Shown here: in pieces, positions 25,749-64,000 of the stretch
Layout of the letters: each line of letters opens with the position of its first letter
How positions within the stretch are numbered: position 1 is the first letter of the stretch
NCBI GenBank assembly: GCA_030144725.1
Contig: JASKMD010000005.1
Location: forward strand, 3,633,404-3,697,403
DNA length: 64,000 bases
Direction: 5' to 3'
Source of the DNA: Haematococcus lacustris
Lineage: Eukaryota > Chlorophyta > Chlorophyceae > Chlamydomonadales > Haematococcaceae
Translations under genes and position numbers: made by a program
Notes under the pieces: model-generated
Database searches by the model: none
Seen by the model: the letters and a program-made list of their open reading frames with translations, nothing else
What the model was told of the DNA's origin: nothing

Positions 25749-28700
25749 CCCAGCAGCTGCTGCCACAGGCGGAGCTCCACCAGGCCTGCTGTGCACCACG
25801 CTGAAAGAGGGCTGTGTGCCCGCCTTGCATCGCCGCACCGCACCTGGAAGATGAGGCCCCCCTGCACATGCGCCTGACACGAGCCAAACAAGCAAACCAG
25901 GCAACCCTCACATGCAAAGGCAACACAACCCAGGCAGACAGGCAGCATGTAGCGTGTGTGTGTGTACTCGCGAATAGCATCAGCTAGGCAAGCATCACAT
26001 CCACGCATGCATGCATGCGTTGCAACAGTGCTCTCTTGGGTTGCGGTGGTGTACTCTGCTGTTGCTGTTTGGGGGCTCTGGGGCTGCCTGCCTGCCTGTT
26101 TGCGCGTTGGGCTGCTGTCCCTTTGCTGCTTCACAGGCTGTGGGCGCATGTGCTTGGGCGGGCTGGGCTGCCACCTCTTGTTCGCTTGCCTCTTGCGCAT
26201 GGGCAAGTCCAGTTTCATGTCTGTGCATGGCCTGGCTGCCTGCAATCTGGGGTGGGGCAGCTGGTTGGCAGGGTTGGCGGGCGGGTATGATGGTGCCTGC
26301 GGTATAGGCTAGGCAGTAGGGACTGCACTGCCTGCTGCCTGTGCGGCCTGTGTTGCCCAGCAGCTGCTGCCACAGGCGGAGCTCCACCAGGCCTGCTGTG
26401 CACCACGCTTGAAGAGGGCTGTGTGCCCGCCTTGCATCGCCGCACCGCACCTGGAAGATGAGGCCCCCCTGCACATGCGCCTGACACGAGCCAAACAAGC
26501 AAACCAGGCAACCCTCACATGCAAAGGCAACACAACCCAGGCAGACAGGCAGCATGTAGCGTGTGTTTGTGTACTCGCGAATAGCATCAGCTAGGCAAGC
26601 ATCACATCCACGCATGCATGCGTTGCAACAGTGCTCTCTTGGGTTGCGGTGGTGTACTCTGCTGTTGCTGTTTGGGGGCTCTGGGGCTGCCTGCCTGCCT
26701 GTTTGCGCGTTGGGCTGCTGTCCCTTTGCTGCTTCACAGGCTGTGGGCGCATGTGCTTGGGCGGGCTGGGCTGCCACCTCTTGTTCGCTTGCCTCTTGCG
26801 CATGGGCAAGTCCAGTTTCATGTCTGTGCATGGCCTGGCTGCCTGCAATCTGGGGTGGGGCAGCTGGTTGGCAGGGTTGGCGGGCGGGTATGATGGTGCC
26901 TGCGGTATAGGCTAGGCAGTAGGGACTGCACTGCCTGCTGCCTGTGCGGCCTGTTTTGCCCAGCAGCTGCTGCCACAGGCGGAGCTCCACCAGGCCTGCT
27001 GTGCACCACGCTTGAAGAGGGCTGTGTGCCCGCCTTGCATCGCCGCACCGCACCTGGAAGATGAGGCCCCCCTGCACATGCGCCTGACACGAGCCAAACA
27101 AGCAAACCAGGCAACCCTCACATGCAAAGGCAACACAACCCAGGCAGACAGGCAGCATGTAGCGTGTGTTTGTGTACTCGCGAATAGCATCAGCTAGGCA
27201 AGCATCACATCCACGCATGCATGCATGCGTTGCAACAGTGCTCTCTTGTGTTGCGGTGGTGTACTCTGCTGTTGCTGTTTGGGGGCTCTGGGGCTGCCTG
27301 CCTGCCTGTTTGCGCGTTGGGCTGCTGTCCCTTTGCTGCTTCACAGGCTGTGGGCGCATGTTCTTGGGCGGGCTGGGCTGCCACCTCTTGTTCGCTTGCC
27401 TCTTGCGCATGGGCAAGTCCAGTTTCATGTCTGTGCATGGCCTGGCTGCCTGCAATCTGGGGTGGGGCAGCTGGTTGGCAGGGTTGGCGGGCGGGTATGA
27501 TGGTGCCTGCGGTATAGGCTAGGCAGTAGGGACTGCACTGCCTGCTGCCTGTGCGGCCTGTGTTGCCCAGCAGCTGCTGCCACAGGCGGAGCTCCACCAG
27601 GCCTGCTGTGCACCACGCTTGAAGAGGGCTGTGTGCCCGCCTTGCATCGCCGCACCGCACCTGGAAGATGAGGCCCCCCTGCACATGCGCCTGACACGAG
27701 CCAAACAAGCAAACCAGGCAACCCTCACATGCAAAGGCAACACAACCCAGGCAGACAGGCAGCATGTAGCGTGTGTTTGTGTACTCGCGAATAGCATCAG
27801 CTAGGCAAGCATCACATCCACGCATGCATGCATGCGTTGCAACAGTGCTCTCTTGGGTTGCGGTGGTGTACTCTGCTGTTGCTGTTTGGGGGCTCTGGGG
27901 CTGCCTGCCTGCCTGTTTGCGCGTTGGGCTGCTGTCCCTTTGCTGCTTCACAGGCTGTGGGCGCATGTTCTTGGGCGGGCTGGGCTGCCACCTCTTGTTC
28001 GCTTGCCTCTTGCGCATGGGCAAGTCCAGTTTCATGTCTGTGCATGGCCTGGCTGCCTGCAATCTGGGGTGGGGCAGCTGGTTGGCAGGGTTGGCGGGCG
28101 GGTATGATGGTGCCTGCGGTATAGGCTAGGCAGTAGGGACTGCACTGCCTGCTGCCTGTGCGGCCTGTGTTGCCCAGCAGCTGCTGCCACAGGCGGAGCT
28201 CCACCAGGCCTGCTGTGCACCACGCTGAAAGAGGGCTGTGTGCCCGCCTTGCATCGCCGCACCGCACCTGGAAGATGAGGCCCCCCTGCTCATGCGCCTG
28301 ACACGAGCCAAACAAGCAAACCAGGCAACCCTCACATGCAAAGGCAACACAACCCAGGCAGACAGGCAGCATGTAGCGTGTGTTTGTGTACTCGCGAATA
28401 GCATCAGCTAGGCAAGCATCACATCCACGCATGCATGCATGCGTTGCAACAGTGCTCTCTTGTGTTGCGGTGGTGTACTCTGCTGTTGCTGTTTGGGGGC
28501 TCTGGGGCTGCCTGCCTGCCTGTTTGCGCGTTGGGCTGCTGTCCCTTTGCTGCTTCACAGGCTGTGGGCGCATGTGCTTGGGCGGGCTGGGCTGCCACCT
28601 CTTGTTCGCTTGCCTCTTGCGCATGGGCAAGTCCAGTTTCATGTCTGTGCATGGCCTGGCTGCCTGCAATCTGGGGTGGGGCAGCTGGTTGGCAGGGTTG

Positions 28701-31700
28701 GCGGGCGGGTATGATGGTGCCTGCGGTATAGGCTAGGCAGTAGGGACTGCACTGCCTGCTGCCTGTGCGGCCTGTGTTGCCCAGCAGCTGCTGCCACAGG
28801 CGGAGCTCCACCAGGCCTGCTGTGCACCACGCTGAAAGAGGGCTGTGTGCCCGCCTTGCATCGCCGCACCGCACCTGGAAGATGAGGCCCCCCTGCTCAT
28901 GCGCCTGACACGAGCCAAACAAGCAAACCAGGCAACCCTCACATGCAAAGGCAACACAACCCAGGCAGACAGGCAGCATGTAGCGTGTGTTTGTGTACTC
29001 GCGAATAGCATCAGCTAGGCAAGCATCACATCCACGCATGCATGCATGCGTTGCAACAGTGCTCTCTTGTGTTGCGGTGGTGTACTCTGCTGTTGCTGTT
29101 TGGGGGCTCTGGGGCTGCCTGCCTGCCTGTTTGCGCGTTGGGCTGCTGTCCCTTTGCTGCTTCACAGGCTGTGGGCGCATGTGCTTGGGCGGGCTGGGCT
29201 GCCACCTCTTGTTCGCTTGCCTCTTGCGCATGGGCAAGTCCAGTTTCATGTCTGTGCATGGCCTGGCTGCCTGCAATCTGGGGTGGGGCAGCTGGTTGGC
29301 AGGGTTGGCGGGCGGGTATGATGGTGCCTGCGGTATAGGCTAGGCAGTAGGGACTGCACTGCCTGCTGCCTGTGCGGCCTGTGTTGCCCAGCAGCTGCTG
29401 CCACAGGCGGAGCTCCACCAGGCCTGCTGTGCACCACGCTTGAAGAGGGCTGTGTGCCCGCCTTGCATCGCCGCACCGCACCTGGAAGATGAGGCCCCCC
29501 TGCACATGCGCCTGACACGAGCCAAACAAGCAAACCAGGCAACCCTCACATGCAAAGGCAACACAACCCAGGCAGACAGGCAGCATGTAGCGTGTGTTTG
29601 TGTACTCGCGAATAGCATCAGCTAGGCAAGCATCACATCCACGCATGCATGCATGCGTTGCAACAGTGCTCTCTTGGGTTGCGGTGGTGTACTCTGCTGT
29701 TGCTGTTTGGGGGCTCTGGGGCTGCCTGCCTGCCTGTTTGCGCGTTGGGCTGCTGTCCCTTTGCTGCTTCACAGGCTGTGGGCGCATGTTCTTGGGCGGG
29801 CTGGGCTGCCACCTCTTGTTCGCTTGCCTCTTGCGCATGGGCAAGTCCAGTTTCATGTCTGTGCATGGCCTGGCTGCCTGCAATCTGGGGTGGGGCAGCT
29901 GGTTGGCAGGGTTGGCGGGCGGGTATGATGGTGCCTGCGGTATAGGCTAGGCAGTAGGGACTGCACTGCCTGCTGCCTGTGCGGCCTGTGTTGCCCAGCA
30001 GCTGCTGCCACAGGCGGAGCTCCACCAGGCCTGCTGTGCACCACGCTGAAAGAGGGCTGTGTGCCCGCCTTGCATCGCCGCACCGCACCTGGAAGATGAG
30101 GCCCCCCTGCTCATGCGCCTGACACGAGCCAAACAAGCAAACCAGGCAACCCTCACATGCAAAGGCAACATAACCCAGGCAGACAGGCAGCATGTAGCGT
30201 GTGTTTGTGTACTCGCGAATAGCATCAGCTAGGCAAGCATCACATCCACGCATGCATGCATGCGTTGCAACAGTGCTCTCTTGGGTTGCGGTGGTGTACT
30301 CTGCTGTTGCTGTTTGGGGGCTCTGGGGCTGCCTGCCTGCCTGTTTGCGCGTTGGGCTGCTGTCCCTTTGCTGCTTCACAGGCTGTGGGCGCATGTGCTT
30401 GGGCGGGCTGGGCTGCCACCTCTTGTTCGCTTGCCTCTTGCGCATGGGCAAGTCCAGTTTCATGTCTGTGCATGGCCTGGCTGCCTGCAATCTGGGGTGG
30501 GGCAGCTGGTTGGCAGGGTTGGCGGGCGGGTATGATGGTGCCTGCGGTATAGGCTAGGCAGTAGGGACTGCACTGCCTGCTGCCTGTGCGGCCTGTGTTG
30601 CCCAGCAGCTGCTGCCACAGGCGGAGCTCCACCAGGCCTGCTGTGCACCACGCTGAAAGAGGGCTGTGTGCCCGCCTTGCATCGCCGCACCGCACCTGGA
30701 AGATGAGGCCCCCCTGCTCATGCGCCTGACACGAGCCAAACAAGCAAACCAGGCAACCCTCACATGCAAAGGCAACACAACCCAGGCAGACAGGCAGCAT
30801 GTAGCGTGTGTTTGTGTACTCATGAATAGCATCAGCTAGGCAAGCATCACATCCACGCATGCATGCATGCATGCGTTGCAACAGTGCTCTCTTGTGTTGC
30901 GGTGGTGTACTCTGCTGTTGCTGTTTGGGGGCTCTGGGGCTGCCTGCCTGCCTGTTTGCGCGTTGGGCTGCTGTCCCTTTGCTGCTTCACAGGCTGTGGG
31001 CGCATGTTCTTGGGCGGGCTGGGCTGCCACCTCTTGTTCGCTTGCCTCTTGCGCATGGGCAAGTCCAGTTTCATGTCTGTGCATGGCCTGGCTGCCTGCA
31101 ATCTGGGGTGGGGCAGCTGGTTGGAAGGGTTGGCGGGCGGGTATGATGGTGCCTGCGGTATAGGCTAGGCAGTAGGGACTGCACTGCCTGCTGCCTGTGC
31201 GGCCTGTGTTGCCCAGCAGCTGCTGCCACAGGCGGAGCTCCACCAGGCCTGCTGTGCACCACGCTGAAAGAGGGCTGTGTGCCCGCCTTGCATCGCCGCA
31301 CCGCACCTGGAAGATGAGGCCCCCCTGCTCATGCGCCTGACACGAGCCAAACAAGCAAACCAGGCAACCCTCACATGCAAAGGCAACACAACCCAGGCAG
31401 ACAGGCAGCATGTAGCGTGTGTTTGTGTACTCGCGAATAGCATCAGCTAGGCAAGCATCACATCCACGCATGCATGCATGCGTTGCAACAGTGCTCTCTT
31501 GTGTTGCGGTGGTGTACTCTGCTGTTGCTGTTTGGGGGCTCTGGGGCTGCCTGCCTGCCTGTTTGCGCGTTGGGCTGCTGTCCCTTTGCTGCTTCACAGG
31601 CTGTGGGCGCATGTGCTTGGGCGGGCTGGGCTGCCACCTCTTGTTCGCTTGCCTCTTGCGCATGGGCAAGTCCAGTTTCATGTCTGTGCATGGCCTGGCT

Positions 31701-33278
31701 GCCTGCAATCTGGGGTGGGGCAGCTGGTTGGCAGGGTTGGCGGGCGGGTATGATGGTGCCTGCGGTATAGGCTAGGCAGTAGGGACTGCACTGCCTGCTG
31801 CCTGTGCGGCCTGTGTTGCCCAGCAGCTGCTGCCACAGGCGGAGCTCCACCAGGCCTGCTGTGCACCACGCTGAAAGAGGGCTGTGTGCCCGCCTTGCAT
31901 CGCCGCACCGCACCTGGAAGATGAGGCCCCCCTGCTCATGCGCCTGACACGAGCCAAACAAGCAAACCAGGCAACCCTCACATGCAAAGGCAACACAACC
32001 CAGGCAGACAGGCAGCATGTAGCGTGTGTGTGTGTACTCGCGAATAGCATCAGCTAGGCAAGCATCACATCCACGCATGCATGCATGCGTTGCAACAGTG
32101 CTCTCTTGTGTTGCGGTGGTGTACTCTGCTGTTGCTGTTTGGGGGCTCTGGGGCTGCCTGCCTGCCTGTTTGCGCGTTGGGCTGCTGTCCCTTTGCTGCT
32201 TCACAGGCTGTGGGCGCATGTGCTTGGGCGGGCTGGGCTGCCACCTCTTGTTCGCTTGCCTCTTGCGCATGGGCAAGTCCAGTTTCATGTCTGTGCATGG
32301 CCTGGCTGCCTGCAATCTGGGGTGGGGCAGCTGGTTGGCAGGGTTGGCGGGCGGGTATGATGGTGCCTGCGGTATAGGCCAGGCAGTAGGGACTGCACTG
32401 CCTGCTGCCTGTGCGGCCTGTGTTGCCCAGCAGCTGCTGCCACAGGCGGAGCTCCACCAGGCCTGCTGTGCACCACGCTGAAAGAGGCCTGTGTGCCCGC
32501 CTTGCATCGCCGCACCGCACCTGGAAGATGAGGCCCCCCTGCTCATGCGCCTGACACGAGCCAAACAAGCAAACCAGGCAACCCTCACATGCAAAGGCAA
32601 CATAACCCAGGCAGACAGGCAGCATGTAGCGTGTGTGTGTGTACTCGCGAATAGCATCAGCTAGGCAAGCATCACATCCACGCATGCATGCATGCGTTGC
32701 AACAGTGCTCTCTTGGGTTGCGGTGGTGTACTCTGCTGTTGCTGTTTGGGGGCTCTGGGGCTGCCTGCCTGCCTGTTTGCGCGTTGGGCTGCTGTCCCTT
32801 TGCTGCTTCACAGGCTGTGGGCGCATGTGCTTGGGCGGGCTGGGCTGCCACCTCTTGTTCGCGTGCCTCTTGCGCATGGGCAAGTCCAGTTTCATGTCTG
32901 TGCATGGCCTGGCTGCCTGCTATCTGGGGTGGGGCAGCTGGTTGGCAGGGTTGGCGGGCGGGTATGATGGTGCCTGCGGTATAGGCTAGGCAGTAGGGAC
33001 TGCACTGCCTGCTGCCTGTGCGGCCTGTGTTGCCCAGCAGCTGCTGCCACAGGCGGAGCTCCACCAGGCCTGCTGTGCACCACGCTGAAAGAGGCCTGTG
33101 TGCCCGCCTTGCATCGCCGCACCGCACCTGGAAGATGAGGCCCCCCTGCTCATGCGCCTGACACGAGCCAAACAAGCAAACCAGGCAACCCTCACATGCA
33201 AAGGCAACATAACCCAGGCAGACAGGCAGCATGTAGCGTGTGTGTGTGTACTCGCGAATAGCATCAGCTAGGCAAGCA

Positions 33279-36200
33279 TCACATCCACGCATGCATGCAT
33301 GCGTTGCAACAGTGCTCTCTTGTGTTGCGGTGGTGTACCCTGCTGTTGCTGTTTGGGGGCTCTGGGGCTGCCTGCCTGCCTGTTTGCGCGTTGGGCTGCT
33401 GTCCCTTTGCTGCTTCACAGGCTGTGGGCGCATGTGCTTGGGCGGGCTGGGCTGCCACCTCTTGTTCGCTTGCCTCTTGCGCATGGGCAAGTCCAGTTTC
33501 ATGTCTGTGCATGGCCTGGCTGCCTGCAATCTGGGGTGGGGCAGCTGGTTGGCAGGGTTGGCGGGCGGGTATGATGGTGCCTGCGGTATAGGCTAGGCAG
33601 TAGGGACTGCACTGCCTGCTGCCTGTGCGGCCTGTGTTGCCCAGCAGCTGCTGCCACAGGCGGAGCTCCACCAGGCCTGCTGTGCACCACGCTGAAAGAG
33701 GGCTGTGTGCCCGCCTTGCATCGCCGCACCGCACCTGGAAGATGAGGCCCCCCTGCTCATGCGCCTGACACGAGCCAAACAAGCAAACCAGGCAACCCTC
33801 ACATGCAAAGGCAACACAACCCAGGCAGACAGGCAGCATGTAGCGTGTGTTTGTGTACTCGCGAATAGCATCAGCTAGGCAAGCATCACATCCACGCATG
33901 CATGCATGCGTTGCAACAGTGCTCTCTTGTGTTGCGGTGGTGTACCCTGCTGTTGCTGTTTGGGGGCTCTGGGGCTGCCTGCCTGCCTGTTTGCGCGTTG
34001 GGCTGCTGTCCCTTTGCTGCTTCACAGGCTGTGGGCGCATGTGCTTGGGCGGGCTGGGCTGCCACCTCTTGTTCGCGTGCCTCTTGCGCATGGGCAAGTC
34101 CAGTTTCATGTCTGTGCATGGCCTGGCTTGCCTGCCTGCTATCTGGGGTGGGGCAGCTGGTTGGCAGGGTTGGCGGGCGGGTATGATGGTGCCTGCGGTA
34201 TAGGCTAGGCAGTAGGGACTGCACTGCCTGCTGCCTGTGCGGCCTGTGTTGCCCAGCAGCTGCTGCCACAGGCGGAGCTCCACCAGGCCTGCTGTGCACC
34301 ACGCTGAAAGAGGCCTGTGTGCCCGCCTTGCATCGCCGCACCGCACCTGGAAGATGAGGCCCCCCTGCTCATGCGCCTGACACGAGCCAAACAAGCAAAC
34401 CAGGCAACCCTCACATGCAAAGGCAACATAACCCAGGCAGACAGGCAGCATGTAGCGTGTGTGTGTGTACTCGCGAATAGCATCAGCTAGGCAAGCATCA
34501 CATCCACGCATGCATGCATGCGTTGCAACAGTGCTCTCTTGGGTTGCGGTGGTGTACTCTGCTGTTGCTGTTTGGGGGCTCTGGGGCTGCCTGCCTGCCT
34601 GTTTGCGCGTTGGGCTGCTGTCCCTTTGCTGCTTCACAGGCTGTGGGCGCATGTGCTTGGGCGGGCTGGGCTGCCACCTCTTGTTCGCTTGCCTCTTGCG
34701 CATGGGCAAGTCCAGTTTCATGTCTGTGCATGGCCTGGCTGCCTGCAATCTGGGGTGGGGCAGCTGGTTGGCAGGGTTGGCGGGCAGGTATGATGGTGCC
34801 TGCGGTATAGGCTAGGCAGTAGGGACTGCACTGCCTGCTGCCTGTGCGGCCTGTGTTGCCCAGCAGCTGCTGCCACAGGCGGAGCTCCACCAGGCCTGCT
34901 GTGCACCACGCTGAAAGAGGCCTGTGTGCCCGCCTTGCATCGCCGCACCGCACCTGGAAGATGAGGCCCCCCTGCTCATGCGCCTGACACGAGCCAAACA
35001 AGCAAACCAGGCAACCCTCACATGCAAAGGCAACACAACCCAGGCAGACAGGCAGCATGTAGCGTGTGTTTGTGTACTCGCGAATAGCATCAGCTAGGCA
35101 AGCATCACATCCACGCATGCATGCATGCGTTGCAACAGTGCTCTCTTGTGTTGCGGTGGTGTACCCTGCTGTTGCTGTTTGGGGGCTCTGGGGCTGCCTG
35201 CCTGCCTGTTTGCGCGTTGGGCTGCTGTCCCTTTGCTGCTTCACAGGCTGTGGGCGCATGTGCTTGGGCGGGCTGGGCTGCCACCTCTTGTTCGCTTGCC
35301 TCTTGCGCATGGGCAAGTCCAGTTTCATGTCTGTGCATGGCCTGGCTGCCTGCAATCTGGGGTGGGGCAGCTGGTTGGCAGGGTTGGCGGGCGGGTATGA
35401 TGGTGCCTGCGGTATAGGCTAGGCAGTAGGGACTGCACTGCCTGCTGCCTGTGCGGCCTGTGTTGCCCAGCAGCTGCTGCCACAGGCGGAGCTCCACCAG
35501 GCCTGCTGTGCACCACGCTGAAAGAGGGCTGTGTGCCTGCCTTGCATCGCCGCACCGCACCTGGAAGATGAGGCCCCCCTGCTCATGCGCCTGACACGAG
35601 CCAAACAAGCAAACCAGGCAACCCTCACATGCAAAGGCAACATAACCCAGGCAGACAGGCAGCATGTAGCGTGTGTGTGTGTACTCGCGAATAGCATCAG
35701 CTAGGCAAGCATCACATCCACGCATGCATGCATGCGTTGCAACAGTGCTCTCTTGGGTTGCGGTGGTGTACTCTGCTGTTGCTGTTTGGGGGCTCTGGGG
35801 CTGCCTGCCTGCCTGTTTGCGCGTTGGGCTGCTGTCCCTTTGCTGCTTCACAGGCTGTGGGCGCATGTGCTTGGGCGGGCTGGGCTGCCACCTCTTGTTC
35901 GCGTGCCTCTTGCGCATGGGCAAGTCCAGTTTCATGTCTGTGCATGGCCTGGCTTGCCTGCCTGCTATCTGGGGTGGGGCAGCTGGTTGGCAGGGTTGGC
36001 GGGCGGGTATGATGGTGCCTGCGGTATAGGCTAGGCAGTAGGGACTGCACTGCCTGCTGCCTGTGCGGCCTGTGTTGCCCAGCAGCTGCTGCCACAGGCG
36101 GAGCTCCACCAGGCCTGCTGTGCACCACGCTGAAAGAGGCCTGTGTGCCCGCCTTGCATCGCCGCACCGCACCTGGAAGATGAGGCCCCCCTGCTCATGC

Positions 36201-50640: not shown

Positions 50641-50663
50641 CTAGGCAGTAGGGACTGCACTGC

Positions 50664-53010: not shown

Positions 53011-53143
53011 ATCGACCGGCAACGCATAATGGTCGAGCGGCAAAGCATAATGGTCGAGCGGCAACGCATAATGGTCGAGCGGCAAAGTGCACTTTTTGAT
53101 AATGGTCGAGCGGCAATTGATAATGGTCGAGCGGCAAAGTACG
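53011..53143 (+). repeat. 21-bp minisatellite (gagcggcaaagcataatggt)
   Basis: Six or seven imperfect units of cgagcggcaa(a/c)gcataatggt, the last ones altered to ttgataatggt. No coding meaning was recognised. Confidence 0.85.
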
Positions 53144-53344
53144 ATTCTCGCAATCAGTGTCGGGAAGCCTTTATAGAGCGGCTGAGTTGAGAAGGGTTGG
53201 TGAAAGCGTTGGTCAACGGGATATACGGTGTTGGTCAACGGGGGATGGGGGCGGTTACGGGATTGGGGAACCTCAAATATACTAGATAACCGCCTTGACC
53301 TCGCGCATTATGCGAACTAATGGTGTCGTCCTCGGCTCTGCTAC

Positions 53345-53377
53345 CATACATCCCTCGGCTGCGCCTCGGGATGTATG
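53345..53377. repeat. Short hairpin catacatccc...gggatgtatg
   Basis: Perfect 10-bp arms (53,345-53,354 and 53,368-53,377) around a 13-nt loop. A second GC hairpin with arms gcgcggc/gccgcgc lies at 53,560-53,576. Confidence 0.8.
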
Positions 53378-53612
53378 TCCGCGCCACCTCGGCCTCGGCC
53401 ATTATTTTCGCGTAATTGAGTTTTACTCAGTTGTAATCGTTAATAGACCTCGTTTTAAGAAGCGTTAACTGCAGCGACCTGGTGTATTAACAAAAAGTGC
53501 TCCCAACGAACACGTAACAGCCGGCCAGCACCATCGCAGGTGACAAGAAGCATCACATTGCGCGGCTTCGCCGCGCCAATAGAGCTTCGCCTACGTAAAA
53601 CTCAATTACACT

Positions 53613-53811
53613 AGATAATGGAGTCGCCTGGGTCGTTTCAGGTGGTTGAAAAAGGCTCGGTCTCGGCCCTGGCGCGGGACAGCTCTCGACCTCAGCCAGC
53701 GGCCACGTCGCTACGCTCCGTGTCCGCTGGCTTCGGTCTCGAGCTGCCCCGCGCCAGGGCCTCGACCTCGCCTTTTTAAACCACCTAAAACGACCCGCGA
53801 CACCATTATCT
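53613..53811. repeat. 199-bp near-palindrome
   Basis: The outer arms agataatgg and ccattatct match perfectly. Inside are paired ggtcgttt/aaacgacc, aggtggtt/aaccacct, aaaaaggc/gccttttt, ccctggcgcggg/ccgcgccaggg and ccagcgg/ccgctgg. The loop is about 20 nt around 53,712. Flanking gtaaaactcaatta (53,596 on) is also inverted relative to taattgagttttac at 53,415. Confidence 0.9.
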
Positions 53812-53880
53812 ACTACATAATGCTCTCGGACCGCCAATTATCTACTACATACCCTGCCGGGCATTCATTTAAAGGTAAAA

Positions 53881-54250
53881 TAGCATGCAGTCATGGCATA
53901 CAGCTAACAACAGATTGCAATGCCGTGGAAGATGTCACTGCCCAACAACTCACCACATGCAGTACATTATACATGCACATTGCAGGTGCATGCTAGCGTT
54001 ACCACATCCCAACAAAGGGAGGGTCGCGAAGTTGGAAGGCACTGTGGTCAAGTTGGACTGATGTGTTCTCTGCACCGTGGCTAACATGGAGACGGCAAGC
54101 ATGGGCAATTGTGCGCATGACATCCAGTTATGACAAGACAGACAATGTCCAGAAAGTATTGCGTGATGCTTTCAACTCCAACTTCAGCGACCAGACGGTC
54201 CATGTGCATCTGCTGTGTGCACGGCTTGCGCATCATAATATATTGTATGA
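53881..54250. other. Unassigned stretch beside the central block
   Basis: Contains a 63-codon open frame on the plus strand (54,063-54,254) of ordinary composition but no recognised domain. No RNA gene or repeat was identified. Confidence 0.3.
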
Positions 54251-54553
54251 CTAATGTAATCGGTGCTGGTTTGCATTCTTGAAGGGGCGTATATCATGCG
54301 TAACAGCATGGTTCATGGTATGCTGAAGTTGATGGACTTGGTAGAGCAACGGCAGAACTAGCTGGCATTGAGTTTTTGTTAAGCGTGAAGCAACAATTTC
54401 TTCCCACTGCGTCGCCCAAATTCTCTGGCCTAGTTCATTTGGGTTGTCATGTTGTTGGAAGTCACCATGGTTCTTGTTGACCTTAACAAAGGGTCCATGG
54501 AGCGCCACACGCCCATCACCAAGAATAACAGCACCAGCACCAAAAAAAGACAT
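54251..54553 (-). CDS. Hypothetical ORF, 100 aa
   Basis: An open frame with balanced amino-acid composition (MSFFGAGAVILGDGRVALHG...), unlike the low-complexity ORFs around it. It could be one exon of a larger minus-strand gene. A polyglutamine-encoding (CTG)9 tract lies upstream at about 54,768-54,794, in an open frame reaching 54,971. No domain, transit peptide or clear splice partners were recognised. It may equally be part of a mobile element. Confidence 0.25.
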   Translation of the reverse strand: MSFFGAGAVILGDGRVALHGPFVKVNKNHGDFQQHDNPNELGQRIWATQWEEIVASRLTKTQCQLVLPLLYQVHQLQHTMNHAVTHDIRPFKNANQHRLH

Positions 54554-55188
54554 AATTCATGCAACCATTCCTTAGACACCATCTTGCCATGACGCTTGGA
54601 AGAGCACAGGTTATGATTGACGCACTGTGCAACCTGCACGCCTGCCAGCGCCCTTCAGCTCTGCTGGCCTCCAAAGCAGCAGCAGGGGAGACAGCGTGGT
54701 GCGGGGGGGTGGTGTCAGGGGCGTACTGGCTAGGGAGGACTTGCTGTTGGGTAGGCCCCCGCACGTGCTGCTGCTGCTGCTGCTGCTGCTGCTGTGGCGG
54801 CTGTGGTTTGGGGGCTGGCTGGGGAAGGTGGAAGGCGGAGCTGTCCAGGGTGAGGTGACAATGTGGGGTAGGGGGGGAGGAAGCGGCTGCGGCAGCTTGT
54901 AGGGGGTCATAGGGCCGAGGAGGGCAGGCTGGTGTGCCGCAGCATGAAGCCAGGTGGTGACATGGTGACATGGTGACATGGTGTGCAGCTGGGTCAGCTG
55001 GGCAAAGGCCTAGACAGAGCTGGCCACAACGGGAGCAACGTGGAGGTGCATGGACACAGCAGCAGGGGCAGCTGCAGCAAGGTCATTACAGCAGGGGAGG
55101 GGCAGCAGCAGGGCCGCCACGCTGGACCCAGCGGTGCTAGTACTACATGTTGAGATGGGTTGTACGCGATACACGGGTGTGCTGCAGC
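54554..55188. other. Unassigned GC-rich stretch with (CTG)9
   Basis: Holds the (CTG)9 run at about 54,768-54,794, a ggtgacat trimer near 54,955-54,980, and CAG-rich segments. No gene was supported. Confidence 0.4.
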
Positions 55189-55820
55189 TGCGCGGCCAGC
55201 AATGACGCCAAGCAAGGTAGTATGGCCTTCACACCTTGTTAGGCCTTGCAGAGTGGCTAGGCAATCCGTACTGCTCAGTTGCATCTGTTTGGCATGAGGC
55301 TGCTGGCGCCAAGCCTGTGCGTGGGGTAGCGGGCATACATGGCAGCAGGCTGGTGGGCAGGCAAGCAGGCTGATGGGTAGGCAGACAGGCCAGCAATGAC
55401 GCCAGCTATGACGCCAGTGGGCTGTCCCGTCATGCATGCGTCAGCGGCTGCGGCCAGCGCCAAGCAACAACACAGTGCCTGGCAGGACAGCAGCAGCCGC
55501 TGGGAGCGAGCGGCAGAGCGTGAAGCGGCAGGGCTGTGGGTGGCCTGCTCGGGAATGGATCAGAGCAGTGGAAGGCTGGCTAGGCGCTACCTCTGGCGGG
55601 GTGGTTGTGACCATGGCGACGATATGGCGGTGGAAGTCACAGTAAAAGGCGGGCTATGTCCGCTACCCCTTGTATGCCCGCTACCCCACGCACCCGCTTG
55701 GCGCCAGCAGCCTCATGCCAAACAGATGCAACTGAGCAGTACGGATTGCCTAGCCACTCTGCAAGGCCTAACAAGGTGTGAAGGCCATACTACCTTGCTT
55801 GGCGTCATTGCTGGCCGCGG
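55189..55820. repeat. Local inverted repeat, about 120-bp arms
   Basis: The segment 55,197-55,312 (cagcaatgacgccaagcaag to ctgctggcgcc) is reverse-complementary to about 55,703-55,818 with almost no mismatch. The roughly 390-bp loop contains the MTK exon 4-region fragment. Confidence 0.85.
55432..55596 (-). pseudogene. MTK intron 3/exon 4 fragment, duplicated
   Basis: On the minus strand it closely matches 21,697-21,863, including the exon 4 acceptor region (ctggccgcag) and the first exon 4 codons ending at tgcatgacggg. Similarity looks near 90% by eye. Only the beginning of the exon is present, so it is non-functional. Confidence 0.8.
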
Positions 55821-55928
55821 GTCACACACTGGCAGCCGCTGCCCTGTCTTCTTCTGCTGCTGGCCCTCCATGTGTTGGCCTTCCTGCTGTTGTTGCATGG
55901 ATACCACTTCACTGGCAGCCACTGAAGG

Positions 55929-56318
55929 GCTGGGGCTGGGGCTGGGGCTGGGGCTGGGGCTGGGGCTGGGGCTGGGGCTGGGGCTGGGGCTGGGGCTGGG
56001 GCTGGGGCTGGGGCTGGGGCTGGGGCTGGGGCTGGGGCTGGGGCTGGGGCTGGGGCTGGGGCTGGGGCTGGGGCTGGGGCTGGGGCTGGGGCTGGGGCTG
56101 GGGCTGGGGCTGGGGCTGGGGCTGGGGCTGGGGCTGGGGCTGGGGCTGGGGCTGGGGCTGGGGCTGGGGCTGGGGCTGGGGCTGGGGCTGGGGCTGGGGC
56201 TGGGGCTGGGGCTGGGGCTGGGGCTGGGGCTGGGGCTGGGGCTGGGGCTGGGGCTGGGGCTGGGGCTGGGGCTGGGGCTGGGGCTGGGGCTGGGGCTGGG
56301 GCTGGGGCTGGGGCTGGG
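55929..56318 (+). repeat. (GGGGCT)n hexanucleotide tract, right arm
   Basis: About 65 uninterrupted units, followed by imperfect gggagctggg steps. It is the inverted counterpart of the tract at 51,446-52,072 but clearly shorter. Runs of four G every six bases make the plus strand strongly prone to G-quadruplex formation. Confidence 0.97.
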
Positions 56319-56339
56319 AGCTGGGGCTGGGGCTGGGAG

Positions 56340-57100
56340 CTGGGAGGGGGTGGGAGGGGCTGGGAGGCCAGGGCTGGGGCTGGGAGGGGGTGGGAAGGGG
56401 TGTGAGGGGGCACGGTCCGATGCAAGGCCGGGTCACGCACAAGTCATTTTCAGCAGGCCTGATTGATGAATTAATGTGCTTTCTATTCGAGCAGCTGTGT
56501 TGTTGAGTTACGATGTCGAGAAGTAATTAGTGATGTGTTCCACGTGTTGCCGGAGCTGAGGAGAAGCAAGGGGCCACAGTCGCTTTGTCGAAGAGGGACA
56601 CGGGGTTAGGGTGTGGTGGTTGTGATCATGGCATGTCGATGATATGGCGGTGGAAGTCACAGTAAAACAAGACGGGGACATGGTTGGGGCAATAGCATTG
56701 TATGATACGCCCGCTGCTTCACATGGACACGGCCCAGCAAGGCCCAGGGGCGGTTGGTTCTTACCCACGCCCTAATGACTTGATGATCTTCGGAAATGTA
56801 GTGATATAAACCGTCATCGTCATCACAAATCTTACAGCATAAGATTCATCACAAGAAGTCAGGTCCAACTGTTCATCATGCATGGAACATTGCTGATCAA
56901 CACTCCCATGGACACTACCACTACTTTTGACCAAGCTCCAGTCTCAAACCAGGCTCCGGGGGCTATGAACCCCATGCCTCAGCTCGTGAGAACATGGGCA
57001 CCTCTCAAAAGAGCAGAGCCTACCTGCCAGCAGCACCGAGGGCTGCTGGCCAGGCCTTCCACCTGCGAGGCAACAGCCACACTGCACCAGACACAGCACA
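56340..57100 (-). repeat. Right arm of inverted repeat flanking the satellites
   Basis: Mirror of 50,664-51,445. It shares the junction with the satellite at the same monomer position (ggcagtgcagtccctactgcc). Point differences and small indels show that the two arms are not an exact copy. Confidence 0.9.
56610..56817 (-). pseudogene. Degenerate MTK exon 3 fragment (right arm)
   Basis: Mirror copy of 50,952-51,150, and therefore also related to 21,102-21,320. On the minus strand it reads ccgtgtccatgtg, attgccccaaccatgtcccc and ccatatcatcgacatgccat. The frame is broken. Confidence 0.65.
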
Positions 57101-60100
57101 GGCAGCAGGCAGTGCAGTCCCTACTGCCTAGCCAATGCCGCAGGCACCATCATACCCGCCCGCCAACCCTGCCAACCAGCTGCCCCACCCCAGATAGCAG
57201 GCAGGCAAGCCAGGCCATGCACAGACATGAAACTGGACTTGCCCATGCGCAAGAGGCACGCGAACAAGAGGTGGCAGCCCAGCCCGCCCAAGCACATGCG
57301 CCCACAGCCTGTGAAGCAGCAAAGGGACAGCAGCCCAACGCGCAAACAGGCAGCCCCAGAGCCCCAGGCAGCAACAGCAGAGCACACCACCGCAACCCAA
57401 GAGAGTACTGGTGCGACGCATGCATACGAAGATGTGATGCTTGCCTAACTGATGCAATGCGCAATCACACACACGCTACATGCTGCCTGTCTGCCTGGGT
57501 TGTGTTGCCTTTGCATGTGAGGGTTGCCTGCTTTGCTTGTTTGGCTCGTGTCAGGCGCATGTGCAGGGGGGCCTCATCTTCCAGGTGCGGTGCGGCGATG
57601 CAAGGCGGGCACACAGCCCTCTTTCAGCTTGGTGCACAGCAGGCCTGGTGGAGCTCCGCCTGTGGCAGCAGCTGCTGGGCAACACAGGCCGCACAGGCAG
57701 CAGGCAGTGCAGTCCCTACTGCCTAGCCTATGCCGCAGCCACCATCATACCCGCCCGCCAACCCTGCCAACCAGCTGCCCCACCCCAGATTGCAGGCAGG
57801 CAGCCAGGCCATGCACAGACATGAAACTGGACTTGCCCATGCGCATGAGGCACGCGAACAAGAGGTGGCAGCCCAGCCCGCCCAAGCACATGCGCCCACA
57901 GCCTGTGAAGCAGCAAAGAGACAGCAGCCCAACGCGCAAACAGGCAGCCCCAGAGCCCCAGGCAGCAACAGCAGAGCACACCACCGCAACCCAAGAGAGT
58001 ACTGGTGCGACGCATGCATACGAAGATGTGATGCTTGCCTAACTGATGCAATGCGCAATCACACACACGCTACATGCTGCCTGTCTGCCTGGGTTGTGTT
58101 GCCTTTGCATGTGAGGGTTGCCTGCTTTGCTTGTTTGGCTCGTGTCAGGCGCATGTGCAGGGGGGGCCTCATCTTCCAGGTGCGGTGCGGCGATGCAAGG
58201 CGGGCACACAGCCCTCTTTCAGCGTGGTGCACAGCAGGCCTGGTGGAGCTCCGCCTGTGGCAGCAGCTGCTGGGCAACACAGGCCGCACAGGCAGCAGGC
58301 AGTGCAGTCCCTACTGCCTAGCCTATACCGCAGGCACCATCATACCCGCCCGCCAACCCTGCCAACCAGCTGCCCCACCCCAGATTGCAGGCAGGCAAGC
58401 CGGGCCATGCACAGACATGAAACTGGACTTGCCCATGCGCAAGAGGCACGCGAACAAGAGGTGGCAGCCCAGCCCGCCCAAGCACATGCGCCCACAGCCT
58501 GTGAAGCAGCAAAGGGACAGCAGCCCAACGCGCAAACAGGCAGCCCCAGAGCCCCAGGCAGCAACAGCAGAGCACACCACCGCAACCCAAGAGAGTACTG
58601 GTGCGACGCATGCATACGAAGATGTGATGCTTGCCTAACTGATGCAATGCGCAATCACACACACGCTACATGCTGCCTGTCTGCCTGGATTGTGTTGCCT
58701 TTGCATGTGAGGGTTGCCTGCTTTGCTTGTTTGGCTCGTGTCAGGCGCATGTGCAGGGGGGGCCTCATCTTCCAGGTGCGGTGCGGCGATGCAAGGCGGG
58801 CACACAGCCCTCTTTCAGCGTGGTGCACAGCAGGCCTGGTGGAGCTCCGCCTGTGGCAGCAGCTGCTGGGCAACACAGGCCGCACAGGCAGCAGGCAGTG
58901 CAGTCCCTACTGCCTAGCCTATGCCGCAGCCACCATCATACCCGCCCGCCAACCCTGCCAACCAGCTGCCCCACCCCAGATTGCAGGCAGGCAGCCAGGC
59001 CATGCACAGACATGAAACTGGACTTGCCCATGCGCATGAGGCACGCGAACAAGAGGTGGCAGCCCAGCCCGCCCAAGCACATGCGCCCACAGCCTGTGAA
59101 GCAGCAAAGGGACAGCAGCCCAACGCGCAAACAGGCAGCCCCAGAGCCCCAGGCAGCAACAGCAGAGCACACCACCGCAACCCAAGAGAGTACTGGTGCG
59201 ACGCATGCATACGAAGATGTGATGCTTGCCTAACTGATGCAATGCGCAACCACACACACGCTACATGCTGCCTGTCTGCCTGGGTTGTGTTGCCTTTGCA
59301 TGTGAGGGTTGCCTGCTTTGCTTGTTTGGCTCGTGTCAGGCGCATGTGCAGGGGGGGGCCTCATCTTCCAGGTGCGGTGCGGCGATGCAAGGCGGGCACA
59401 CAGCCCTCTTTCAGCGTGGTGCACAGCAGGCCTGGTGGAGCTCCGCCTGTGGCAGCAGCTGCTGGGCAACACAGGCCGCACAGGCAGCAGGCAGTGCAGT
59501 CCCTACTGCCTAGCCTATGCCGCAGCCACCATCATACCCGCCCGCCAACCCTGCCAACCAGCTGCCCCACCCCAGATTGCAGGCAGGCAAGCCAGGCCAT
59601 GCACAGACATGAAACTGGACTTGCCCATGCGCAAGAGGCACGCGAACAAGAGGTGGCAGCCCAGCCCGCCCAAGCACATGCGCCCACAGCCTGTGAAGCA
59701 GCAAAGGGACAGCAGCCCAACGCGCAAACAGGCAGCCCCAGAGCCCCAGGCAGCAACAGCAGAGCACACCACCGCAACCCAAGAGAGTACTGGTGCGACG
59801 CATGCATACGAAGATGTGATGCTTGCCTAACTGATGCAATGCGCAACCACACACACGCTACATGCTGCCTGTCTGCCTGGATTGTGTTGCCTTTGCATGT
59901 GAGGGTTGCCTGCTTTGCTTGTTTGGCTCGTGTCAGGCGCATGTGCAGGGGGGCCTCATCTTCCAGGTGCGGTGAGGCGATGCAAGGCGGGCACACAGCC
60001 CTCTTTCAGCTTGGTGCACAGCAGGCCTGGTGGAGCTCCGCCTGTGGCAGCAGCTGCTGGGCAACACAGGCCGCACAGGCAGCAGGCAGTGCAGTCCCTA

Positions 60101-63100
60101 CTGCCTAGCCTATGCCGCAGCCACCATCATACCCGCCCGCCAACCCTGCCAACCAGCTGCCCCACCCCAGATTGCAGGCAGGCAAGCCAGGCCATGCACA
60201 GACATGAAACTGGACTTGCCCATGCGCAAGAGGCACGCGAACAAGAGGTGGCAGCCCAGCCCGCCCAAGCACATGCGCCCACAGCCTGTGAAGCAGCAAA
60301 GGGACAGCAGCCCAACGCACAAACAGGCAGCCCCAGAGCCCCAGGCAGCAACAGCAGAGCACACCACCGCAACCCAAGAGAGTACTGGTGCGACGCATGC
60401 ATACGAAGATGTGATGCTTGCCTAACTGATGCAATGCGCAACCACACACACGCTACATGCTGCCTGTCTGCCTGGGTTGTGTTGCCTTTGCATGTGAGGG
60501 TTGCCTGCTTTGCTTGTTTGGCTCGTGTCAGGCGCATGTGCAGGGGGGGCCTCATCTTCCAGGTGCGGTGCGGCGATGCAAGGCGGGCACACAGCCCTCT
60601 TTCAGCGTGGTGCACAGCAGGCCTGGTGGAGCTCCGCCTGTGGCAGCAGCTGCTGGGCAACACAGGCCGCACAGGCAGCAGGCAGTGCAGTCCCTACTGC
60701 CTAGCCTATGCCGCAGCCACCATCATACCCGCCCGCCAACCCTGCCAACCAGCTGCCCCACCCCAGATTGCAGGCAGGCAGCCAGGCCATGCACAGACAT
60801 GAAACTGGACTTGCCCATGCGCAAGAGGCACGCGAACAAGAGGTGGCAGCCCAGCCCGCCCAAGCACATGCGCCCACAGCCTGTGAAGCAGCAAAGAGAC
60901 AGCAGCCCAACGCGCAAACAGGCAGCCCCAGAGCCCCAGGCAGCAACAGCAGAGCACACCACCGCAACCCAAGAGAGTACTGGTGCGACGCATGCATACG
61001 AAGATGTGATGCTTGCCTAACTGATGCAATGCGCAATCACACACACGCTACATGCTGCCTGTCTGCCTGGGTTGTGTTGCCTTTGCATGTGAGGGTTGCC
61101 TGCTTTGCTTGTTTGGCTCGTGTCAGGCGCATGTGCAGGGGGGGCCTCATCTTCCAGGTGCGGTGCGGCGATGCAAGGCGGGCACACAGCCCTCTTTCAG
61201 CGTGGTGCACAGCAGGCCTGGTGGAGCTCCGCCTGTGGCAGCAGCTGCTGGGCAACACAGGCCGCACAGGCAGCAGGCAGTGCAGTCCCTACTGCCTAGC
61301 CTATGCCGCAGCCACCATCATACCCGCCCGCCAACCCTGCCAACCAGCTGCCCCACCCCAGATTGCAGGCAGGCAAGCCAGGCCATGCACAGACATGAAA
61401 CTGGACTTGCCCATGCGCAAGAGGCACGCGAACAAGAGGTGGCAGCCCAGCCCGCCCAAGCACATGCGCCCACAGCCTGTGAAGCAGCAAAGGGACAGCA
61501 GCCCAACGCGCAAACAGGCAGCCCCAGAGCCCCAGGCAGCAACAGCAGAGCACACCACCGCAACCCAAGAGAGTACTGGTGCGACGCATGCATACGAAGA
61601 TGTGATGCTTGCCTAACTGATGCAATGCGCAACCACACACACGCTACATGCTGCCTGTCTGCCTGGATTGTGTTGCCTTTGCATGTGAGGGTTGCCTGCT
61701 TTGCTTGTTTGGCTCGTGTCAGGCGCATGTGCAGGGGGGCCTCATCTTCCAGGTGCGGTGAGGCGATGCAAGGCGGGCACACAGCCCTCTTTCAGCTTGG
61801 TGCACAGCAGGCCTGGTGGAGCTCCGCCTGTGGCAGCAGCTGCTGGGCAACACAGGCCGCACAGGCAGCAGGCAGTGCAGTCCCTACTGCCTAGCCTATG
61901 CCGCAGCCACCATCATACCCGCCCGCCAACCCTGCCAACCAGCTGCCCCACCCCAGATTGCAGGCAGGCAAGCCAGGCCATGCACAGACATGAAACTGGA
62001 CTTGCCCATGCGCAAGAGGCACGCGAACAAGAGGTGGCAGCCCAGCCCGCCCAAGCACATGCGCCCACAGCCTGTGAAGCAGCAAAGGGACAGCAGCCCA
62101 ACGCACAAACAGGCAGCCCCAGAGCCCCAGGCAGCAACAGCAGAGCACACCACCGCAACCCAAGAGAGTACTGGTGCGACGCATGCATACGAAGATGTGA
62201 TGCTTGCCTAACTGATGCAATGCGCAACCACACACACGCTACATGCTGCCTGTCTGCCTGGGTTGTGTTGCCTTTGCATGTGAGGGTTGCCTGCTTTGCT
62301 TGTTTGGCTCGTGTCAGGCGCATGTGCAGGGGGGGCCTCATCTTCCAGGTGCGGTGCGGCGATGCAAGGCGGGCACACAGCCCTCTTTCAGCGTGGTGCA
62401 CAGCAGGCCTGGTGGAGCTCCGCCTGTGGCAGCAGCTGCTGGGCAACACAGGCCGCACAGGCAGCAGGCAGTGCAGTCCCTACTGCCTAGCCTATGCCGC
62501 AGCCACCATCATACCCGCCCGCCAACCCTGCCAACCAGCTGCCCCACCCCAGATTGCAGGCAGGCAGCCAGGCCATGCACAGACATGAAACTGGACTTGC
62601 CCATGCGCAAGAGGCACGCGAACAAGAGGTGGCAGCCCAGCCCGCCCAAGCACATGCGCCCACAGCCTGTGAAGCAGCAAAGAGACAGCAGCCCAACGCG
62701 CAAACAGGCAGCCCCAGAGCCCCAGGCAGCAACAGCAGAGCACACCACCGCAACCCAAGAGAGTACTGGTGCGACGCATGCATACGAAGATGTGATGCTT
62801 GCCTAACTGATGCAATGCGCAATCACACACACGCTACATGCTGCCTGTCTGCCTGGGTTGTGTTGCCTTTGCATGTGAGGGTTGCCTGCTTTGCTTGTTT
62901 GGCTCGTGTCAGGCGCATGTGCAGGGGGGGCCTCATCTTCCAGGTGCGGTGCGGCGATGCAAGGCGGGCACACAGCCCTCTTTCAGCGTGGTGCACAGCA
63001 GGCCTGGTGGAGCTCCGCCTGTGGCAGCAGCTGCTGGGCAACACAGGCCGCACAGGCAGCAGGCAGTGCAGTCCCTACTGCCTAGCCTATGCCGCAGCCA

Positions 63101-64000
63101 CCATCATACCCGCCCGCCAACCCTGCCAACCAGCTGCCCCACCCCAGATTGCAGGCAGGCAAGCCAGGCCATGCACAGACATGAAACTGGACTTGCCCAT
63201 GCGCAAGAGGCACGCGAACAAGAGGTGGCAGCCCAGCCCGCCCAAGCACATGCGCCCACAGCCTGTGAAGCAGCAAAGGGACAGCAGCCCAACGCGCAAA
63301 CAGGCAGCCCCAGAGCCCCAGGCAGCAACAGCAGAGCACACCACCGCAACCCAAGAGAGTACTGGTGCGACGCATGCATACGAAGATGTGATGCTTGCCT
63401 AACTGATGCAATGCGCAACCACACACACGCTACATGCTGCCTGTCTGCCTGGATTGTGTTGCCTTTGCATGTGAGGGTTGCCTGCTTTGCTTGTTTGGCT
63501 CGTGTCAGGCGCATGTGCAGGGGGGCCTCATCTTCCAGGTGCGGTGAGGCGATGCAAGGCGGGCACACAGCCCTCTTTCAGCTTGGTGCACAGCAGGCCT
63601 GGTGGAGCTCCGCCTGTGGCAGCAGCTGCTGGGCAACACAGGCCGCACAGGCAGCAGGCAGTGCAGTCCCTACTGCCTAGCCTATGCCGCAGCCACCATC
63701 ATACCCGCCCGCCAACCCTGCCAACCAGCTGCCCCACCCCAGATTGCAGGCAGGCAAGCCAGGCCATGCACAGACATGAAACTGGACTTGCCCATGCGCA
63801 AGAGGCACGCGAACAAGAGGTGGCAGCCCAGCCCGCCCAAGCACATGCGCCCACAGCCTGTGAAGCAGCAAAGGGACAGCAGCCCAACGCACAAACAGGC
63901 AGCCCCAGAGCCCCAGGCAGCAACAGCAGAGCACACCACCGCAACCCAAGAGAGTACTGGTGCGACGCATGCATACGAAGATGTGATGCTTGCCTAACTG
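57101..64000 (+). repeat. Right satellite array, about 11.6 monomers of about 595 bp, continuing past the window
   Basis: Same family as the left array but in inverted orientation. Units are 595-596 bp and about 12 bp shorter than the left ones, through a compacted caggcagccccagagcccc segment and a single gcatgcatacgaagatg in place of the repeated CATG steps. A 1,786-bp higher-order repeat (three monomers) is visible: landmarks at 59,906/61,692, 60,457/62,243 and 61,052/62,838. Frames are open on the plus strand but shift between monomers, so coding is unlikely. Confidence 0.97.

Follow-up and report, generated by a model that had tools for sequence, protein, structure and literature searches.

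Opposed satellite arrays form a palindrome of about 49 kb on chromosome 5 of Haematococcus lacustris, with outer arms most alike within each of two assembled copies

Two opposed arrays of one satellite family form a mirror structure on Chr5 of Haematococcus lacustris SAG 192.80, inside the scaffold (3.63 of 6.57 Mb) and in an ordinary gene-bearing part of the chromosome. We have analysed it in a window of 64,000 nucleotides and in the sequence downstream. The structure is real and larger than first described, spanning ~49 kb around a 3.85-kb core (Table 1). Because the flanks of its two halves were most alike within each of two assembled copies of the locus, it looks like a repeat maintained by recombination rather than a centromere or a chromosome end. 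Probably, a satellite array together with the 3' end of a choline-kinase-like gene was duplicated long ago in inverted orientation, with breakage or switching at G-rich tracts; the arms would since have been renewed by conversion or break-induced copying and the arrays by unequal exchange.

Table 1. Features of the mirror structure and its left flank (window positions)
Feature	Positions	Strand	Remarks
Kinase-like gene (choline/ethanolamine kinase/APH type)	20402..24048	+	tblastn with H. lacustris protein P0003 (531 aa, PF01633/PF01636)
Interstitial TTAGGG repeat	21549..21643	+	between kinase coding matches (intron), outside palindrome
Left outer arm	23492..25748	+	kinase 3' end + 1.7 kb; inverted copy 70277-72554 (C312:3703680-3705957)
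Left satellite array	25748..50676	+	41 units; first unit begins at position 1, last one breaks at 597
Left inner tail	50677..51435	+	inverted copy in right tail
(CCCCAG)n tract	51436..52079	+	104 perfect units at 51448-52071; inner limit of left arm
Central spacer	52080..55926	.	3.85 kb, collinear piecewise with second copy
1.2-kb insert in spacer	52631..53847	.	absent from second copy; lower GC
(CTGGGG)n tract	55927..56384	-	64 perfect units at 55930-56313; inner limit of right arm
Right inner tail	56385..57095	-	inverted copy of left tail
Right satellite array	57096..64000 in window	-	11 full units + partial; continues past window end

Alignment of the units confirmed what a sequence-only reading had described, namely two opposed arrays of one family with 41 units of ~607 bp on the left and at least 11 inverted units of ~595 bp on the right. 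The left units measured 607 bp, some 611 or 612 and one 603 bp, the last (601 bp) being cut by the array edge; those on the right measured 595 or 596 bp, the first (585 bp) being cut likewise. With the downstream sequence the right array comprised 22 units and ended at about 70187-70245 (~6.2 kb past the window end), with short remnants to 70277. The same reading had both inner edges broken at one monomer position, which we located at unit position 597, and the two subfamilies separated by fixed indels; we found fixed differences between them in 31 columns, gaps counted. Mean distances were 0.29-1.00% within arrays and 1.92-5.78% between them, and the strings of unit types contained recurring blocks (LMNLMN, JKLM twice, EFGEFG). 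This head-to-tail arrangement with local homogenisation is that of satellite DNA.

A unit probe found the family at few other places in the genome among the matches listed, a lower bound, with the window's own array absent from the list. One solo unit, at C136:3.641 Mb, started at unit position 284 and came back to the same position, one complete circuit of the unit. Two other identities of the units were considered. Against an array of non-coding RNA genes, there was no Rfam match at the gathering score in the window, none at E up to 0.5 in 49400-57800, and no tRNA. A protein-coding tandem repeat is less firmly rejected: the unit lengths (607, 611 and 595 bp) are not multiples of 3 and neither of two unit ORFs had a Pfam match, but ORFs of this kind have been annotated elsewhere.

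The mirror symmetry extended on both sides of the arrays. A single inverted alignment of 2118 columns (93.7% match) took in the array edge, the tail and some of the tract, which is not chance. The flanking ~0.8 kb and the hexanucleotide tracts are inverted, as had been proposed: 50622-51357 matched 57150-56394 at 91.9% over 764 columns, and the inner tails differed by 27 substitutions in 675 positions (4.0%). The symmetry also reached 2.3 kb outside both arrays, with 23492-25749 matching downstream 72554-70277 at 95.8% over 2280 columns. By alignment, the structure is thus a palindrome with long inverted arms (23492-52079 and 55927-72554) around a spacer. Since the outer flanks are also mirrored, its span is about 49 kb rather than the at least 38 kb first given, the palindromic nature itself being upheld. 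The 6-kb inverted spacer of the earlier description was correct only for the outer parts of what is a 6.4-kb gap between the arrays; the central 3.85 kb had no arm-to-arm inverted repeat.

The palindrome contains pieces of its neighbour. Coding matches of the kinase-like gene lay at 20402-20659, 20833-20910, 21181-21321, ~21850-22290, ~22584-22683 and 23311-24045 (tblastn), with a weak PF01636 match (E 0.00067, below the cut-off), and the outer edge of the palindrome falls within the last exon of the gene. A degenerate copy of kinase exon 3 occurs in the left tail (51017-51124), and an inverted kinase-gene fragment in the central spacer (55421-55588), which also holds small local inverted repeats. 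Within the 1.2-kb insert there are tandem repeats of 21 bp and, at 53612-53812, a palindrome of 200 bp.

A second copy of the locus was present on the same scaffold 2.3 Mb away (C312:1368000-1437999), inverted and collinear with the window copy over more than 70 kb, extended to window position 9421. A 42-residue piece of FtsZ, which is encoded at window 6.7 kb and thus outside this range, had no match there. Its architecture is the same: the two arrays, of 25 and at least 26 units, are opposed, and one of them has a gap of 500 N at its outer edge. Five spacer pieces were collinear between the copies (52193-52630, 53848-54384, 54386-54511, 54577-55207 and 55401-55654). Of three mirror comparisons, two (the window palindrome and the inner second-copy palindrome) had arm limits at the (CCCCAG)n/(CTGGGG)n tracts. 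The array-side tail symmetry of the second copy (27016-28127 vs 42622-41511) ended ~270 bp short of the tract at 28401; arm limits thus do not always coincide with a tract.

We have then compared the four outer arms, left and right in the window copy (WL, WR) and in the second copy (SL, SR), over 2237 ungapped columns with 159 variable sites. The grouping (WL,WR)|(SL,SR) was supported by 69 sites, whereas the allelic pairing (WL,SR)|(WR,SL) and the third pairing (WL,SL)|(WR,SR) were supported by none. Substitutions within copies amounted to 72/2255 (3.19%) for WL-WR and 0.79% for SL-SR, against 4.61% (WL-SR) and 5.75% (WR-SL) between copies. Hence, the outer arms are more alike within a copy than to their counterparts in the other copy, as in palindromes that undergo gene conversion. 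Among 20 indels, eight fitted the same grouping, one the allelic and one the third pairing, and 10 were confined to a single arm. The window arrays did not share this within-copy agreement (WL-WR 5.08% vs WL-SL 4.52%). In both window tails, a stretch at the same place was nearer the B-type of the second copy (90.7 and 89.6%) than its array-side T-type (81.1 and 80.0%), the T-type figures being over a longer alignment and with one of four T copies; these four agreed pairwise at 99.2-99.6% over a shared 1112 bp, where listed.

These observations can be accommodated by the following model. The satellite array, with the kinase 3' end outside and the kinase-derived tail and (CCCCAG)n inside, would have given rise to an adjacent inverted copy. 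The hexanucleotide tract, prone to G-quadruplex formation, would be the likely site of replication stalling or breakage and strand switching. The arm flanks in one chromosome copy may then convert each other or be re-copied by break-induced replication, which would make them similar within a copy and different between copies. Each array would be homogenised separately by unequal sister exchange or block duplication, and some units may be excised as circles that integrate at other sites. The model assigns no dedicated cellular function to the structure. Of the origins first suggested, a breakage-fusion product is supported in a loose sense, as an ancestral inverted duplication; arms from a breakage-fusion-bridge event would meet with little or no spacer and start identical. 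An asymmetric 3.85-kb spacer separates them today, but this may be a later addition.

The 69:0:0 site pattern would equally fit a history without arm-to-arm conversion, in which each chromosome copy made its own inverted duplication at one unstable site after the copies had split. The spacers differ structurally between copies, and so do the outer arm limits, which lie at the 23492-equivalent in the window copy, abutting a dispersed repeat, and at the 23216-equivalent in the second copy, after ~730 bp of other sequence. Nevertheless, we regard independent origin as unlikely, because all the shared edges, modules and placement would need chance repetition: each of the four inner array edges leads into the same tail (break at 597 in the window copy, and at 589 for the second copy aligned to the window unit), spacer modules are common to both copies, and in both the far arm is bordered by the spacer on one side and by the same combination of dispersed repeat and right flank on the other. 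The shared inner edge and spacer modules favour a palindrome older than the split of the copies; the outer limits differ.

Several observations do not sit easily with an old, renewed inverted duplication. The differing outer limits, which independent origin would also explain, are one; the others are the second-copy tail limit lacking a tract, the two of 20 indels off the grouping, the distances of the window arrays and the 500-N gap.

The second copy most probably represents the other allele, put in the wrong place during scaffolding, judging from unique flanks that differ by only 1.1-3.5% in six blocks. A segmental duplication, making it a true paralogous Chr5 locus, would agree with the placement of both copies on one scaffold and with a palindrome divergence (~5%) above the 1.5% heterozygosity reported for H. 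lacustris K-0084 (PMC7617258). Against this quite improbable reading stand, besides the similar flanks, a flank probe that matched in full length at these two places only (40 of 130 candidates scored), an assembly about twice the 151 Mb given for K-0084 (PMC7617258), and another pair, on C136, with the same inverted, same-scaffold layout and 102/7230 substitutions (1.41%). Both outer arms and two of three spacer pieces differed between the copies more than all six flank blocks. We do not claim that divergence rises toward the palindrome: the Spearman coefficient was -0.60 (p 0.005) on the left, where the windows included the outer arm itself, and +0.29 (p 0.32) on the right, with a joint p of 0.11.

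The inverted-repeat regional centromeres of fission yeast and some Candida consist of a core, inverted inner repeats and outer tandem arrays. The palindrome resembles them in this order, which is present in both copies of the locus, and a centromere core had been among the roles first proposed. A regional centromere of this kind with chromosome-specific sequence seems very unlikely here, all the same. Unlike in those centromeres, genes are close by (the kinase gene 1.7 kb and an FtsZ exon, at window 6.7 kb, ~19 kb from the left array), and a tail probe found the full tail only at this locus and its second copy, not on other scaffolds (40 of 438 candidates scored). Satellite units occurred at few other places (a lower bound), GC is ordinary, and green-algal centromeres have been described as transposon-rich (PMC11005252). 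We would give slightly less credence still to a combination in which arm-to-arm copying from the G-quadruplex tracts might renew a fission-yeast-like, chromosome-specific centromere on each homologue.

A false mirror join is highly implausible. The contig N50 (304.8 kb), the average HiFi read length (16.6 kb) and the coincidence of an array edge with the gap in the second copy would allow for one, but the arms are 3-5% different, unlike a read chimera, there is no N in 1-129076 of the window and downstream sequence, and the second copy has the same architecture. Moreover, two satellite-unit ORFs are annotated as hypothetical proteins in H. lacustris V8C86DRAFT entries, each on one 146,447-bp contig, with their top second-copy matches in the left and right array, respectively. 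The earlier statement that this is not one locus assembled twice therefore holds, the outer arms being 3.2% and the arrays 5.1% different.

The evidence against a centromere is weaker than that against head-to-head fused subtelomeres or telomeres, a suggestion that found no support and has next to no likelihood. The arrays are opposed, and 4 kb outside the left one there is a TTAGGG tract, but this tract is intronic to the kinase gene, outside the palindrome and variable in length between copies (84 bp of perfect repeat in the window, 36 bp in the second copy). The locus is internal to the scaffold and flanked by genes, and the G-strands of the hexanucleotide tracts point outward, away from the centre (in the left tract the minus strand is G-rich and its 3' end faces the left array). 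No TTAGGG run of at least four units occurred between the arrays, and adjacency to telomeric repeats at a chromosome end or fusion point was not found. Neither satellite nor TTAGGG run was present in four scaffold-end tiles (three starts, one end), a weak test with ends that are not telomeric. In the subtelomeric Sultan arrays of Chlamydomonas, a satellite array is bordered by a specific spacer, as here; the internal position, gene flanks, lack of a telomere and mirror pair are different. PMC8226300 credits Chaux-Jukic et al. with a description of subtelomeres.

The putatively recombination-maintained palindrome shares features with two other known systems. Palindromes with mutually converting arms are best known from mammalian sex chromosomes, and the algal structure would work like these, with large inverted arms round a spacer and flanks more alike within a chromosome copy. 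It is set apart from them by its outer-arm identity (96.8 and 99.2% within copies), its ordinary algal scaffold, arms that are mainly satellite, and no amplified gene family kept intact. Like satellite DNA under concerted evolution, it has head-to-tail units, array-specific subfamilies, block duplications and private fixed differences; unlike usual satellite DNA, it occupies one locus, a second copy and few solo units (a lower bound), in mirror arrays with shared flanks. In H. lacustris, Marcolungo et al. reported short tandem repeats in complex patterns of tens of kb, the longest stretch by manual inspection being 34 kbp, and their description of these stretches mentions no mirror arrays, palindrome or allele comparison (PMC7617258). 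We found no account of the present structure among the literature titles and abstracts that were listed.

The locus is a satellite-bearing palindrome at an ordinary site in a diploid alga; both of its copies seem to have been assembled, and the outer arms agree within a copy. If confirmed, it would offer a tractable case for inverted duplications that start at repeat tracts and for mirror satellite arrays that diverge while their flanks are homogenised. A further suggestion is that both alleles of a single locus can be present in the published H. lacustris pseudo-chromosomes; copy numbers and gene-family sizes counted from the assembly of this industrial alga would then be misleading.

The locus in the window (W, the window plus 80 kb downstream, with coordinates running on past 64000) had zero N within positions 1-129076. 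A 20-bp minisatellite of ~40 copies (window 5821-6630) adjoined the FtsZ exon.

Features of the window locus W
Feature	Position	Orientation or strand	Remark
FtsZ exon	window ~6650-6800	minus	Pfam PF00091 match
Kinase gene	20402-24048		
Left outer arm	ends 25748		
Left array	ends 50676		41 units
Left inner tail	between left array and (CCCCAG)n		
(CCCCAG)n tract	ends 52079		
Central spacer	ends 55926		
(CTGGGG)n tract	ends 56384		
Right inner tail	ends 57095		
Right array	ends 70245	inverted	22 units
Right outer arm	ends 72554	inverted	

A second locus on the same scaffold (S, C312:1368000-1437999) was inverted and collinear with W from 9421 to 82851, insertions and internal differences excepted. 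Substitutions between W and S amounted to 1.14, 2.40, 3.49, 2.09, 1.58 and 3.36% in six unique flank blocks, to 3.45, 5.46 and 6.14% in three spacer pieces, and to 4.61 and 5.75% in the outer arms. The probe from the flank (window 18000-19200), for which 40 of 130 candidates were scored, was matched at full length only at W and S, the remaining 75 of its 77 matches being short. The window has one copy of a 1.7-kb stretch (9421-11129), to which the second copy, in the tile beside S (C312:1438000-1447999), had two full matches and one partial match, a tandem duplication.

The alignment of the four outer arms (left and right arms of each locus: WL, WR, SL and SR) contained 2237 gapless columns, of which 159 were variable. 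W was separated from S at 69 sites, with zero sites for either other pairing, and single-arm states were found at 42 (WR), 25 (WL), 12 (SL) and 7 (SR) sites, with three states at 4. The 20 indel events comprised eight W|S, one supporting the allelic pairing, one the third pairing and ten confined to a single arm. WL and WR differed at 72/2255 positions, SL and SR at 20/2534. The stretch common to both W tails (positions 203-549 and 213-553) was nearer to the B-type of S (90.7 and 89.6%) than to its array-side T-type (81.1 and 80.0%). Of the 43 variable sites in the array consensus, 8 separated W from S, none followed the allelic pairing, 1 followed the third pairing and 34 were private or three-state. 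The S arrays agreed within their copy (SL-SR 1.92%), while the W arrays lacked such agreement (WL-WR 5.08%, WL-SL 4.52%, WL-SR 4.58%). Together, the outer-arm pattern and the array distances indicate that the outer flanks would have been homogenised across arms, with the W arrays following a separate course. The mean difference within arrays was 0.97 (WL), 0.68 (WR), 1.00 (SL) and 0.29% (SR), and block duplications were visible in the unit-type strings.

Of the opposed S arrays, one contained 25 full units and the other, which reached a 500-N gap, at least 26. Between them lay additional single or partial units as well as an inner palindrome (31244-34723 vs. 40708-37244, 97.7%), whose arms ended at hexanucleotide tracts, with 99.3% agreement over 599 bp outside the tracts and zero match in the 600 bp inside them. 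The 600-bp stretches on the inner side of the W tracts had only a 68-bp piece in common, displaced by 190 bp. A third comparison did not fit, the S array-side tails being 99.2% alike over 1112 bp and their agreement stopping ~270 bp short of the 28401 tract. A satellite unit directly abutted two of the three S tracts, and at one such junction the unit itself read GGGCTGGGCTG. Since arm limits fell at tracts and tracts abutted units, the hexanucleotide tract was taken as a switch or break point, a correlation and not a proof. The W spacer carried a 1.2-kb insert (window 52631-53847) that the second copy lacked. The GC of this insert was lower, it contained a 200-bp palindrome as well as a 21-bp tandem repeat, and it looks like organelle-type repeat DNA.

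Most of the 531 residues of P0003, an H. lacustris choline-kinase-like protein, were matched in order on the left side, and the right arm held only the last 188 (344-531). Both W inner tails contained decayed copies of kinase exon 3, and the spacer an inverted kinase fragment (55421-55588 vs. 21703-21872, 90%). The presence of kinase pieces in arms, tails and spacer indicated that the satellite is embedded in material from one gene neighbourhood. A kinase intron held a TTAGGG tract (window 21549-21643), which is a length-variable interstitial telomeric repeat (perfect repeat over 84 bp in W against 36 bp in S).

The data are best explained by an inverted duplication whose breakpoints lay at G-rich tracts and whose arms would afterwards have been renewed by arm-to-arm conversion or break-induced copying, with unequal exchange acting on each array separately. 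The differing outer limits of W and S are consistent with an S arm having been re-copied recently, read from the 0.8% divergence, the longer arm and the truncated dispersed repeat. They would also fit independent origins of the two palindromes, which we consider unlikely. The sequence gave no sign of a dedicated function of the palindrome.

The satellite unit had a conserved core of 39 bp: across 116 sequences, made up of 115 units in place and one solo unit brought into phase, every column was conserved in at least 99%. A unit probe, with 5/9 candidates scored, gave at least eight matches, which lay in S, on scaffold C136 (two places) and on scaffold C476 (one place). The window's own array was missing from these matches, so common units were skipped and arrays elsewhere could be missed; satellite counts beyond the fetched loci are lower bounds. 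The flanks of the C136 solo units at 3.641 and 4.705 Mb, inverted on one scaffold, differed by 1.41% (102/7230). The unit at 3.641 Mb (C136:3641255-3641860) began and ended at unit position 284, making up exactly one unit in circularly permuted form, as would be expected of a reinserted one-unit circle; alternatively, an old array may have contracted there. A near-repeat of ~20 bp, read by eye, flanked the partial unit C476:18545646-18545912. Of the 42 tail-probe matches (40 of 438 candidates scored), the 10 that exceeded 100 bp all lay at W and S, and 32 were 67-73 bp pieces on many scaffolds (85-90% identity); the tail piece at window 51255-51327 (up to 73 bp) is probably part of a dispersed element.

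Two H. lacustris hypothetical proteins, V8C86DRAFT_1381989 and V8C86DRAFT_1381945, were satellite-unit translations, and both were placed on a contig of the same length (146,447 bp), thus presumably the same contig. Among their top eight S matches, one protein fell in the left array (91-93%) and the other in the right (96-97%); a mirror pair on this contig too is suggested. P0003 was listed on a contig of 585,050 bp.

The SAG 192.80 H. pluvialis (lacustris) assembly is described as 316 Mb with Hi-C scaffolding, built from HiFi reads with a mean of 16.6 kb and a contig N50 of 304.8 kb (PMC10400597). Strain K-0084 is described as diploid, with a 151-Mb assembly, 1.5% heterozygosity and the telomere motif AACCCT, and for the Bian et al. 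assembly, with which it made a comparison, the same source proposes that the doubled size reflects two genome copies (PMC7617258). The window occupies 3633404-3697403 of the C312 scaffold (Chr5), which measures 6,569,691 bp; two other scaffold lengths, 8,590,500 and 21,499,393 bp, are those of Chr25 and Chr8 in the SAG 192.80 assembly. A telomeric repeat run was absent from four of four scaffold-end tiles (first 10 kb of C312, C136 and C476, last 10 kb of C312), so those ends are probably not chromosome ends. The paired loci were inverted and 1-2.3 Mb apart, on C312 (window and 1.368-1.448 Mb) and on C136 (3.64 and 4.70 Mb). We infer that the W/S and C136 pairs are alleles put on one scaffold by Hi-C. 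In both pairs examined, the two alleles of one locus seem to lie within published pseudo-chromosomes. If pseudo-chromosomes carry both alleles, gene and repeat counts would be inflated.
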